This document shows, one piece after another, positions 13,558 through 44,798 of a DNA stretch of 44,798 nucleotides (within the stretch, counting starts at the first letter, position 1; every line of letters begins with the position of its first letter). The notes below the pieces were generated by a model. It made no database searches. It worked only from the letters and a program-made list of their open reading frames with translations, and was not told the DNA's origin. A program made the position numbers and the translations under genes. The stretch covers positions 1 through 44,798 of the forward strand of contig JAFDGA010000016.1 of the NCBI GenBank assembly GCA_019309545.1, written 5' to 3'. This DNA comes from Deltaproteobacteria bacterium. Lineage in GTDB: Bacteria; Desulfobacterota; Desulfobaccia; Desulfobaccales; Desulfobaccaceae.

Positions 13558-13692
13558 ATGCTACGTAATCCTGCGGTCTGGCTGCTGATTTTTTTTGCCT
13601 TATTATTCATTCTGGGACTCAATAGCGGTGAGGTGGAGATTCTGCTTAATACCGGGGTCACGATCTGCCTTTCTTGTATCGGGATCGGTTGA
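13558..13692 (+). CDS. CD1871A-like CXXC-containing membrane microprotein
   Basis: A 44-residue protein: one hydrophobic helix (about residues 7-20), then EVEILLNTGVTICLSCIGIG with the CXXC motif four residues from the end. The pattern of one membrane helix plus a terminal ICLxCIGIG matches what I recall of the CD1871A family of CXXC peptides, which sit beside 4Fe-4S proteins. The start ATG follows GGGGAGGG. Its TGA overlaps the ATG of the polyferredoxin gene as TGATG, so the two are translationally coupled. A thiol/redox or metal-handling helper role for the polyferredoxin is inferred; no function is established. Confidence 0.75.
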   Translation: MLRNPAVWLLIFFALLFILGLNSGEVEILLNTGVTICLSCIGIG

Positions 13693-14576
13693 TGAACCGT
13701 TTACGTCGCCTCATCCAGGTGCTGTTTACCCTGCTGACCAACGCCTACCTGTTGTTCCCCTGGGGGCCGGTGATTTATCAGGGGCCTCTCAAAGGTATTT
13801 GCCATCCCGGGCTGAACTGCTATTCATGTCCCGCGGCTCTGTTCGGCTGTCCGGTTGGCGCTTTCCAGAACTTTATGGCCAATATTCGCCTCTCCCTGGC
13901 TACCGGGGTTCCCCAAATGGGGACTATAGTCGTGGGATACTTAGGTTTTATCGGTTCTTTGGTGGGGCGCTTCCCCTGCGCCTGGCTCTGTCCTTTTGGC
14001 CTTATTCAAGATCTGCTCTATAAAATCCCCGGTCCTAAACTCAATATTCCAGGACCCTTAAAGTACGTTAAATATGTAATCTTAGTGCTTCTGGTGGTGA
14101 TTTTGCCGCTTTTCTGGGTTGATCCTACCGGCCTGGGGACCCCCTGGTTCTGTAAATTAATCTGTCCGGCCGGGACCTTACTGGGAGCTTTTCCACTCCT
14201 GGTGGTCAAACCCAGTCTGTGGCAGGCGTTAAGCTTCTACTTTTGGAATAAGGTCATCTTACTGGTATTATTTATTGGGTGGAGTATCGTCAGCAGCCGG
14301 GCCTTCTGCCGGGTATTGTGCCCTTTGGGGGCTTTTTATGGGTTATTTAACAGATACAGCCTGTTCCGCCTCAACTATGATGAGGATAAATGTGTCCATT
14401 GCCTTGCCTGTTATCGCCAATGTCCGATGGGGGTGCGGCCTTATCAATATGCCGATGATACCAACTGTATCCGCTGCCTGAAATGTGTCCAGGCCTGCCG
14501 TTTTGGGGCCTTGTCTTTTAATTTGCGAAAGTTACCGGCGGCCCCGGCTAGGGCCATCCAGCAGAGGGAAACATGA
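13692..14576 (+). CDS. NapH/YccM-like membrane polyferredoxin (4Fe-4S protein)
   Basis: Integral membrane iron-sulfur protein of 294 residues. The N-terminal part has several hydrophobic helices with cysteine motifs between them (CPAALFGCPVG, CAWLCPFG, CKLICPAG, CRVLCPLG), the NapH/RdxA-type pattern. The C-terminal part has two 4Fe-4S motifs: CVHCLACYRQCPMG and CIRCLKCVQACRFG. Such proteins pass electrons between quinones and periplasmic or cytoplasmic partners. An in-frame upstream codon at 13674 exists, but ATG 13692 overlaps the preceding stop and is preferred. It overlaps the following HDAC-like gene by ATGA. The physiological partner is not visible in the window. Confidence 0.88.
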   Translation: MNRLRRLIQVLFTLLTNAYLLFPWGPVIYQGPLKGICHPGLNCYSCPAALFGCPVGAFQNFMANIRLSLATGVPQMGTIVVGYLGFIGSLVGRFPCAWLCPFGLIQDLLYKIPGPKLNIPGPLKYVKYVILVLLVVILPLFWVDPTGLGTPWFCKLICPAGTLLGAFPLLVVKPSLWQALSFYFWNKVILLVLFIGWSIVSSRAFCRVLCPLGAFYGLFNRYSLFRLNYDEDKCVHCLACYRQCPMGVRPYQYADDTNCIRCLKCVQACRFGALSFNLRKLPAAPARAIQQRET

Positions 14577-15507: not shown

Positions 15508-15583
15508 GCGGGCATAGCTCAGTTGGTAGAGTACAAGCTTCCCAAGCTTGGTGTCGCGGGTTCGAATCCCGTTGCCCGCTCCA
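15508..15583 (+). tRNA. tRNA-Gly (anticodon CCC)
   Basis: The 76-base cloverleaf has acceptor arms GCGGGCA/TGCCCGC, D-stem GCTC/GAGT, anticodon stem CAAGC/GCTTG around loop TTCCCAA, T-stem GCGGG/CCCGT with loop TTCGAAT, and an encoded CCA. The loop gives anticodon CCC, reading GGG glycine codons. In E. coli a tRNA gene (metY) also leads the rimP-nusA-infB operon; here glycine tRNA holds that position. Confidence 0.95.
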
Positions 15584-42766: not shown

Positions 42767-42833
42767 AACTTGCGAGATACGCCACTGTAATCCAAGCCGC
42801 TGACCGGCTGAGCCTAACAGAGGAGGAATGAGC

Positions 42834-43118
42834 ATGGCCTTGACCAAGGAGAAGATTATCAATAATGTCCACAACCAGATAGGGCTCAGTAAACAGGAAG
42901 CCCGGGCCGCGGTAGAGCGGGTGCTGGAGATCATGAAAGAGACCCTGGCCCGGGAAGAGGACCTGCTGATCAGTGGCTTCGGTAAGTTCTCGGTGCGGCG
43001 CAAGAACGCCCGCCGGGGACGTAACCCCCAGACCAGACAGGACCTGATGTTGCGCGCCCGCAACGTCGTGGTCTTTAAAACCTCTGGGGTGCTGCGCAAC
43101 CGCATTAATGGCACCTGA
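42834..43118 (+). CDS. Nucleoid protein, integration host factor/HU family
   Basis: DNA-bending protein of 94 residues with IHF-alpha-like marks: MALTKEKIINNVHNQIGLSKQEARAAVERVLEIMKETL and the DNA-binding ISGFGKFSVRRKNARRGRNPQT. AGGAGG is eight bases before ATG 42834, whereas ATG 42828 would be too close. GGCACC/GGTGCC (43110-43128) straddles the stop codon but lacks a T-run. Confidence 0.93.
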   Translation: MALTKEKIINNVHNQIGLSKQEARAAVERVLEIMKETLAREEDLLISGFGKFSVRRKNARRGRNPQTRQDLMLRARNVVVFKTSGVLRNRINGT

Positions 43119-43444
43119 AATCGGTGCCCTCCCTCAAGTCTTGTGTTAATCTTTCTAAATCTTATCCTTTGAGACCTGGTCAGGGCTATGAACGGCCTAA
43201 TCTCCTCTCCGGTCTGGCTTGCTCCGCTGGTAGGTTGGTGGTCATCCTTCCATTACCGCTATCACCCTCTACGAACCTCCCATAACATAATCAAGCGATC
43301 ACTATAATTTCGATGGAGCTTCCCCTGGGGGAACCCTTAAGGGGTGGAAAATTATGGTAAAGCCAGAAGATAAATGTTACAATTTTTTTAATGCCAATTT
43401 CTTCACCGGGTTTGCCCCTTTTAACTCGAAATCTGGAATTAAGC
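43119..43444. other. Intergenic region before the radical SAM gene
   Basis: About 325 bases without a gene. It contains a TATAAT (43303-43308) lacking a convincing -35 box and, after it, two adjacent palindromes: TTCCCC/GGGGAA (43320-43333) and CCCTTAAGGG (43334-43343). They may form a structured leader or an operator for the next gene. Nothing else was recognised. Confidence 0.45.
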
Positions 43445-44623
43445 ATGGAAAAATGGCCTAGCGAGTGGAGTACCTGGAACTGCAGCCGCCGCCAATTTAT
43501 CAGGGCCGGGGCTCTGGGCCTGGTGGCCCTGGCGCTTCCGGTGCTGTCCGTACCGGCAATTGGTCAGCAGGTCCGTTATGGGTTTATCCGCCCCCGGCCA
43601 GCCTCCTATTTCACCCCCTTGCCGGATGGCATGGTGCGCTGCGAGCTTTGCCCCCATAATTGCGAAGTGCTGGACGGCGAACGGGGCGAATGCGGGGTGC
43701 GGGAGAATCGGGGCGGCCGGTACTATACCTTGGCCTATGGAAACCCCTGCGCCGTGCATATCGACCCTATCGAGAAAAAACCTCTGTTTCACATCCTGCC
43801 TGGCAGCGCCTCCTACTCCATTGCTACCGCGGGCTGCAACCTGCATTGCAAGTTCTGCCAGAATTGGGAAATCTCTCAAGTACGTCCGGAGGATACTTAT
43901 AATTTCGACTTCCCCCCCGAGGCAATCGTTAAGGCGGCGCAAGAGACCAACTGCCCCTCCATTGCCCATACCTATGTGGAGCCGATCATTTTTTATGAAT
44001 ACATGCTGGAGGTGGGACGCCTGGCCCGCCAGGTCGGTATTCTCAATGTCTGCCATTCGGCGGGCTACATCAACCCCAAGCCCCTGGAAGCCCTCTGCGA
44101 GTACCTGGATGCGGCCTGCATCGACCTCAAGGCCTTCACCGATGACTTTTACCGCAATTTAGTGGGCGGCAGTTTGGCCCCGGTGTTGGCTAGCTTAAAG
44201 ACTTTGCGCCGCCGTCAGGTTCATCTGGAGCTAGTCAATCTGATCATTCCCCAGTTTAATGATGACCCCAAGGATTTAAAAAAGATGTGCATCTGGATTC
44301 GGGACGAACTGGGGCCGCTCACCCCCCTGCATTTTTCCCGCTTTTATCCTTTATATAAGATGCGCAACCATTTCCCGACGCCGGTGGCCACCTTGGAACG
44401 GGCCCGGCAAACGGCCCTGGAAGCGGGTCTGAAATACGTCTATATCGGCAACGTCCGGGAAAACCCGGCGGAGAATACCTACTGCCATAACTGCGGCAAA
44501 CTGATCATCCCTCGCCGGGGCTATATGATCGGCGAGGTCAAGATGAAAGACGGGGCCTGCGCCTTCTGCGGCACTAAAATTCCGGGTATCTGGCTCGGCC
44601 CTTCCCTCAAATTAACCCTTTAA
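43445..44623 (+). CDS. amrS: AmmeMemoRadiSam-type radical SAM protein with Tat signal
   Basis: The 392-residue protein begins with a twin-arginine signal (SRRQFIR at 14-20, then a hydrophobic run to about residue 38). The body matches the radical SAM member (AmrS) of the AmmeMemoRadiSam system: MVRCELCPHNCEVLDGERGECGVREN, the cluster motif CNLHCKFC (C131, C135, C138), LKAFTDDFYR and LHFSRFYPLYKM, plus two C-terminal knuckles (CHNCG, CAFCG). The AMMECR1- and Memo-like partners are not in the window. The frame opens at 43391; ATG 43445 is preferred since it places the Tat motif near the start. Its reaction is unknown. Confidence 0.88.
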   Translation: MEKWPSEWSTWNCSRRQFIRAGALGLVALALPVLSVPAIGQQVRYGFIRPRPASYFTPLPDGMVRCELCPHNCEVLDGERGECGVRENRGGRYYTLAYGNPCAVHIDPIEKKPLFHILPGSASYSIATAGCNLHCKFCQNWEISQVRPEDTYNFDFPPEAIVKAAQETNCPSIAHTYVEPIIFYEYMLEVGRLARQVGILNVCHSAGYINPKPLEALCEYLDAACIDLKAFTDDFYRNLVGGSLAPVLASLKTLRRRQVHLELVNLIIPQFNDDPKDLKKMCIWIRDELGPLTPLHFSRFYPLYKMRNHFPTPVATLERARQTALEAGLKYVYIGNVRENPAENTYCHNCGKLIIPRRGYMIGEVKMKDGACAFCGTKIPGIWLGPSLKLTL

Positions 44624-44660: not shown

Positions 44661-44798
44661 TTGGGGTTTAGCTGCGGCATTGTCGGGCTGCCCAATGTCG
44701 GCAAGTCCACTATCTTCAATGCCCTTACTGCAGGGCAGGCTGTGGTCGCAAGTTATCCATTTACCACTGTTAGCCCAAATATCGGGGTGGTCCCCGTG
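44661..44798 (+). CDS. ychF: Obg-like GTP/ATP-binding protein YchF, 5' part
   Basis: The first 46 codons run off the window. [43 protein letters not shown] is the P-loop and switch region of YchF/OLA1, a ribosome-linked ATPase. The start is TTG 44661 behind GGGAGA. Confidence 0.92.

Follow-up and report, generated by a model that had tools for sequence, protein, structure and literature searches.

Conservation of Memo and AMMECR1 extends from archaea to humans, and their function is unsettled; a 2019 paper by Burroughs in JBC is said to be a study of Memo. Both proteins belong to the AmmeMemoRadiSam system, which is recognised by the models TIGR04337 (the radical SAM enzyme, rS), TIGR04336 (Memo) and TIGR04335 (AMMECR1). 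The genome studied here, represented by a window of 44,798 nucleotides (the whole stretch of DNA analysed), shares with this system the score of its rS, one Memo, one AMMECR1 and identical catalytic and accessory cysteines, but differs in a Tat signal on the enzyme, a deep clade of its own, a signal-like N-terminus on AMMECR1 and the lack of a single operon. The protein families are known, and the putatively exported branch is a variant that we have not found described in the literature searched. Term searches retrieved no paper on an exported AmmeMemoRadiSam, most subscription journals being outside their coverage, and within the main text of PMC8238504 and PMC11334425 a term search found no link between a NosR/NapH-type protein and a radical SAM enzyme. 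PMC7159879 cites the paper by Burroughs.

The enzyme in the window has the following features.

43445..44623, + strand: AmmeMemoRadiSam-type radical SAM enzyme (rS) of the putatively exported clade, from TIGR04337 (385 bits), the search of its own genome and the tree
43484..43501, + strand: twin-arginine motif SRRQFI, residues 14-19, from the sequence and RR conservation, Pfam TAT_signal being sub-threshold
43505..43570, + strand: hydrophobic core and small-x-small site (A-I-G before QQ), residues 21-42, from the sequence, the class of site being conserved
43640..43693, + strand: N-terminal Cys4 set C66, C69, C73 and C83, invariant
43835..43858, + strand: radical SAM cluster motif CNLHCKFC (C131, C135 and C138), invariant
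44483..44569, + strand: C-terminal Cys4 set C347, C350, C372 and C375, from residue conservation

A sequence-only reading of this DNA had described an AmmeMemoRadiSam radical SAM protein with a Tat export signal, and its ORF, frame, coordinates and SRRQFIR-type motif were reproduced on checking the sequence. The ORF encodes 392 aa from the ATG at 43445 (opening sequence MEKWPSEWSTWNCSRRQFIRAGALGLVALALPVLSVPAIGQQ), and its N-terminus, ...NCSRRQFIRAGALGLVALALPVLSVPAIGQQ, displays a twin arginine, then a hydrophobic run and then a small-x-small site. The twin arginine is retained in 22/22 Desulfobaccales-type rS enzymes compared, above chance, and the small-x-small site is present in most Desulfobaccales rS, two of which (L031 and L033) have no obvious cleavage site. 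A helix at residues 15-34 in the AF2 model overlaps the region of the signal segment, and the genome encodes TatC (163 bits, cut-off 133). Signal calls throughout are heuristic, and Pfam TAT_signal matches in the right place with only 15.5 bits, under its cut-off of 22.7, although the Tat-type segment itself was confirmed from the sequence and its relatives. A contig-specific oddity was rejected, as the same N-terminus is found in relatives from many phyla.

Translation might instead begin downstream of the Tat motif, giving an ordinary cytoplasmic enzyme and refuting the sequence-only reading; an in-frame ATG does lie just before the core (MVRCELC), and the sub-threshold Pfam score would fit. 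To judge from substitutions between congeners, however, the first 52 codons are evolving as coding sequence, with 12, 10 and 24 changes at positions 1, 2 and 3 against G002 and 14, 9 and 21 against G001. This pattern and the twin arginine kept across the clade contradict a downstream start, and proteins of the signal-less clade C (see below) begin some 14 residues ahead of the core, and the internal ATG would therefore cut the usual family N-terminus; we regard such a start as very improbable. A further in-frame ATG is located upstream at 43391; the congeners G001 and G002 begin at the residue equivalent to 43445 (MDNWF...).

Enzymes from 80 named loci and 59 genomes, including the genome of the window, were compared; 185 were classified, and 176 distinct cores were kept for the tree after removal of duplicates and of cores below 290 aa or 330 bits. 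FastTree analysis of the 176 cores gave two groups with support of 99 each, clade E (n = 114), which includes the window enzyme, and clade C (n = 50), which includes a second copy from the same genome, L002. Export signals were called in 100/114 rows of clade E (82 Tat, 13 Sec and 5 lipobox-like, including four Tat corrections made by eye in L251, L100, L069 and L074), compared to 0/50 rows of clade C. The 14 signal-less rows of clade E consist of one 11-row subclade plus L101, L271_40 and L073_14; in the subclade several Memo/AMMECR1 partners still have TM or lipobox segments while the enzyme has no signal, implying that the enzyme and its partner may sit in different compartments. Tandem pairs of clade-E rS genes, one of which can be without a signal, were observed in L070, L073 and L271. 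According to the record labels, clade E comprises Desulfobaccales and other deltaproteobacteria, Omnitrophota, Elusimicrobiota, WOR-3/Stahlbacteria, KSB1, Caldithrix, Acidobacteriota, Aminicenantes, Bacteroidales, Planctomycetota, Poribacteria, Spirochaetes, Armatimonadetes, Hydrothermota and one Woesearchaeota MAG; most members are MAGs, so that single taxon placements may be contamination. Classical cleavable signals are seen in many of the Sec-type members, and the switching between Tat and Sec within the clade suggests that the outside location, rather than the export route, has been kept. In the members with Sec signals the cluster could not cross pre-folded.

The AmmeMemoRadiSam identity proposed from the sequence alone is well supported, as TIGR04337 matches residues 54-383 with 385.3 bits, far over its cut-off of 220. 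Among the signal-bearing members of clade E, conservation reaches 97-100%, as in clade C, for DLK, E179, E262, D273 and H296 as well as for the radical SAM cysteines and the N-terminal Cys4 set, and the C-terminal set is retained at 100% (C347 and C375), 99% (C372) and 97% (C350). A degenerate enzyme was rejected on this conservation of catalytic and SAM-site residues. The best sequence match is the PFL-activating enzyme, a cytoplasmic protein that is not known to carry the two additional Cys4 sets. Its structures (PDB 3C8F and 3CB8) also represent the closest solved fold to the AF2 model of the window enzyme (pLDDT 94, pTM 0.88), with TM-scores by target of 0.79-0.82. Models of glycyl radical enzyme activases fail on the window enzyme, TIGR02494 (PFLA) giving 51.6 bits with a cut-off of 174.

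Three proteins in the genome of the window exceed the TIGR04337 cut-off: the window enzyme, the standard clade-C enzyme L002 without a signal and a divergent enzyme, L003, also without a signal. The partners were correctly described as non-adjacent, being single copies on other contigs; rS, Memo and AMMECR1 are spread over contigs C16, C25 and C49. The one Memo (L006) has no signal, and the single AMMECR1 (L007) carries a hydrophobic, signal-like N-terminal segment ending PAAAKEKD. No exported Memo was found in this genome on probing with a 549-aa lipoprotein that bears a divergent Memo domain, strong matches to which (at least 139 bits) were confined to genomes of the Desulfobaccales family f2 and G033, with 0/7 in family f1, the genome of the window included. 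This lipoprotein, with its divergent Memo-like domain, was observed in L296-L304 and L306, from f2 genera and G033. The exported set in the genome of the window may consist of the enzyme and AMMECR1 only.

Three further genes in the window are relevant to the surroundings of the enzyme.

42828..43118, + strand: HU/IHF-like protein, from a profile match, the order HU-rS-YchF being kept in Desulfobaccales
44662..44798, + strand: start of a YchF-like GTPase, downstream neighbour of rS, from the sequence and YchF domains among the neighbours in relatives; the contig ends at 44798
13692..14576, + strand: NapH-type membrane ferredoxin, candidate electron carrier, from 60% identity and 391 bits to a linked NapH

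In family f2 the gene order is NapH-HU-rS-YchF. Genus g4 (G008, G009 and G013, 95-100% complete) possesses NapH, HU and YchF, with rS absent between HU and YchF, and in all three genomes AMMECR1 lacks a signal, its only possible start being near the usual cytoplasmic one. These genomes form one lineage, so the concerted loss of rS and of the AMMECR1 signal counts as a single event. The hydrophobic signal segment is present in 25/28 Desulfobaccales AMMECR1 genes (20/25 called by script), g4 providing the exceptions. All 28 genes also have a start codon (27 ATG and 1 GTG) at one column just before the domain, adjoining columns being variable, and in 20/28 this column has a Shine-Dalgarno-like stretch of 4 or more bases ahead of it, compared to 3/60 of the remaining ATGs inside these genes. 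The AMMECR1 of the window's genome (L007:1498-2148) is one of the 28 with the conserved internal start behind a signal-like N-terminus. From this pattern it is inferred that one Desulfobaccales AMMECR1 gene yields both an exported and a cytoplasmic form. Use of the internal start alone is the alternative view. It is weakened by the retention of the hydrophobic segment in 25 genomes and its loss only in g4, but in the codon test on the AMMECR1 N-termini a weak third-position excess was the only trend, by itself no proof that the signal is translated.

The sequence-only reading had proposed a search for AMMECR1/Memo partners with matching signals, and such partners were found, both in the signal-like AMMECR1 of the same genome and in Memo-AMMECR1 proteins of other phyla with Sec or lipobox signals. 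A Memo or Memo-AMMECR1 gene occurs in the clade-E rS locus in 35/80 named loci, and a Sec, lipobox or other signal was called by script on 32/35 of these proteins, the exceptions being L063, L090 and L116; other clade-E loci, G036 and G057 among them, have the genes for rS, Memo and AMMECR1 grouped together. Two KSB1 loci (L079 and L097) encode an exported enzyme and an exported Memo-AMMECR1 followed by a second AMMECR1 without a signal. Whole-genome searches of the 28 clade-E genomes without a linked Memo gave, by eye, 21 with an exported Memo or Memo-AMMECR1 (24 evaluable). The remaining seven comprise two with only signal-less Memo, of which not every copy was read, and one ambiguous (G059, G083 and G076, tallied as not found or ambiguous), two with no Memo (G074 and G077) and two truncated (G071 and G084). 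Many of the 28 also carry a separate signal-less Memo, and two systems seem to coexist in many such genomes.

At the level of genomes, 29/30 of those with a clade-E enzyme had, by eye, an AMMECR1 or Memo predicted to be exported (26/30 by script), compared to 1/16 of those without one (Fisher test, 5e-10 by eye and 1e-7 by script). Outside Desulfobaccales the corresponding counts were 9/10 and 1/13 (p = 1.1e-4). Only those of the 59 genomes that are at least 90% complete were tabulated, G045 and G046 were omitted for lack of an evaluable AMMECR1/Memo, and AMMECR1 signals recognised by eye were added for G003, G017 and G018; the genomes share ancestry, so that these p-values overstate independence. 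The two exceptions are G043, with a clade-E enzyme and no exported partner, and G049, with a lipoprotein Memo-AMMECR1 and no clade-E enzyme. The exported forms keep the Memo metal ligands and the AMMECR1 LRGCIG motif.

The NapH-type gene in the window lies 29 kb upstream of rS on the same contig and is the orthologue of the gene found just upstream of HU-rS in relatives; the orthologue L041 matches Fer4_5 with 63 bits (cut-off 22), and the window copy was matched to L041 without itself being scanned with Pfam. NapH-type genes lie within 1 kb of 17/95 clade-E and 1/45 clade-C enzymes, the 17 coming from two lineages, and NapH persists in g4 without rS. Some linked NapH-type proteins (L012 and L092, for example) also carry an FMN-binding domain and an SGAT-type motif, as in NosR. 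The arrangement resembles NosR/NapH-type extracytoplasmic electron transfer in that a Fer4_5 protein, with FMN_bind in some loci, stands beside what would likewise be an extracytoplasmic redox enzyme, and differs in that L041 scores only 81 bits on the NapH model (cut-off 213). The gene after Memo-AMMECR1 in Omnitrophota encodes a DsbD_2 protein. Pfam analysis of 183 of the 210 clade-E neighbour proteins gave Fer4_5 (13), DUF362 (14), Spermine_synth (12), DsbD_2 (11) and FMN_bind (5), none of which recurs in the list of 25 families from the 58 clade-C neighbours scanned out of 64 (size limits applied, and short or doubtful ORFs were excluded). Within 1 kb the clades did not differ in DsbD (1/95 in clade E, 0/45 in clade C) or TatC (2/95 and 1/45), which are clear in particular lineages. 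The reductant that the sequence-only reading left unknown thus has candidates in the genetically linked NapH/NosR-type Fe-S membrane proteins, electron flow from them being only inferred.

Other neighbours were also observed. A membrane spermidine-synthase-like protein (NF037959/PF01564; e.g. L077:388-2256) lies within 1 kb of 22/95 clade-E and 0/45 clade-C enzymes; it is possibly SAM-related, a mere lead with its role unexplained. DUF362 proteins (11/95 and 0/45 within 1 kb; e.g. L080:7403-8398), several with Tat-like N-termini, stand beside clade-E rS in Acidobacteriota, KSB1, WOR-3 and others, their role likewise unexplained. The window also contains a tRNA-Gly (ccc) at 15508-15583.

Another possibility is that the enzyme is exported but has lost radical SAM chemistry, its clusters and the metal site of Memo being used jointly for electron transfer or metal handling. 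The linked membrane electron carriers and the Memo metal ligands conserved in the exported proteins are compatible with such a role, and we know of no source of SAM outside the cytoplasm. Relaxation of the SAM site would then be expected, whereas clade-E members with a signal keep its residues, and not the cysteines alone, at 97-100%, and we consider this explanation improbable.

Somewhat less improbable, though still unlikely, is that the N-terminal segment is a membrane tether only and catalysis takes place on the cytoplasmic side, for instance by modification of AMMECR1 or Memo-AMMECR1 before export. SAM and strong reductants are cytoplasmic, L031 and L033 lack an obvious cleavage site, and the subclade that lost its signal has partners that retain TM or lipobox segments. 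Against a cytoplasmic orientation, positive residues before the hydrophobic run predict an N-in/C-out topology, most Desulfobaccales members have the small-x-small site, cleavable signals of the classical kind occur on many Sec-type members, and the NapH/NosR, DsbD and Tat-signal DUF362 neighbours suggest an outside location. With positive charges in front of the run, the catalytic domain would lie outside whether soluble or anchored. Between the two alternatives raised from the sequence alone, an enzyme working outside or a membrane anchor, soluble and anchored forms cannot be separated by the comparative evidence, which does favour export over a spurious start.

We estimate a probability of about 60% that the window enzyme represents an ancient extracytoplasmic branch of AmmeMemoRadiSam with exported AMMECR1 and membrane electron carriers, export being inferred and not measured. 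Tat would move the enzyme across the cytoplasmic membrane in folded form, probably with its Fe-S clusters in place, and on the outer face it would be freed by signal peptidase or remain tethered. Its partners would be the exported AMMECR1 or, in most other phyla, a secreted or lipoprotein Memo-AMMECR1 fusion, with electrons supplied by NapH/NosR-type (Fer4_5, sometimes FMN-binding) carriers or by DsbD-like ones in Omnitrophota. The separate copy L002 would serve the ordinary cytoplasmic system, and the single two-start AMMECR1 gene would probably supply both compartments. SAM is the chief problem for this account: the enzyme may take it up before being exported by Tat, or an unknown transporter may provide it. 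At the level of sequence, the signals, the clade, the catalytic conservation, the linkage and the concerted loss are established, whereas actual export, electron flow, the partnership and the two AMMECR1 forms remain inferences, and the SAM source and the substrate are missing. The 14/114 signal-less clade-E enzymes, the signal-less Memo of the window's genome, the NapH kept in g4 and linked in two lineages only, G043 and G049, the Sec-type signals of some members, the heuristic signal calls with a sub-threshold Pfam TAT_signal score and the lack of a known SAM source outside the cytoplasm count against this account.

The signals on the enzyme and its partners in many phyla suggest a second, outside-membrane version of a widespread system. 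Its fuller form is put forward only tentatively: an ancient second AmmeMemoRadiSam system would lie outside the cytoplasmic membrane of a dozen or more phyla, perform radical SAM chemistry with delivered or pre-loaded SAM, be fed by NapH/NosR or DsbD proteins and act on or with an exported Memo-AMMECR1, one two-start AMMECR1 gene supplying both compartments in Desulfobaccales. If the enzyme is active outside, this would be, as far as we know, the first radical SAM chemistry beyond the cytoplasm, raising the question of SAM supply. A parallel system outside the cytoplasm would limit the possible substrates, excluding RNA and cytoplasmic metabolites, and the paired signals, the electron carriers encoded nearby and the clean losses would provide a genetic handle on AmmeMemoRadiSam.
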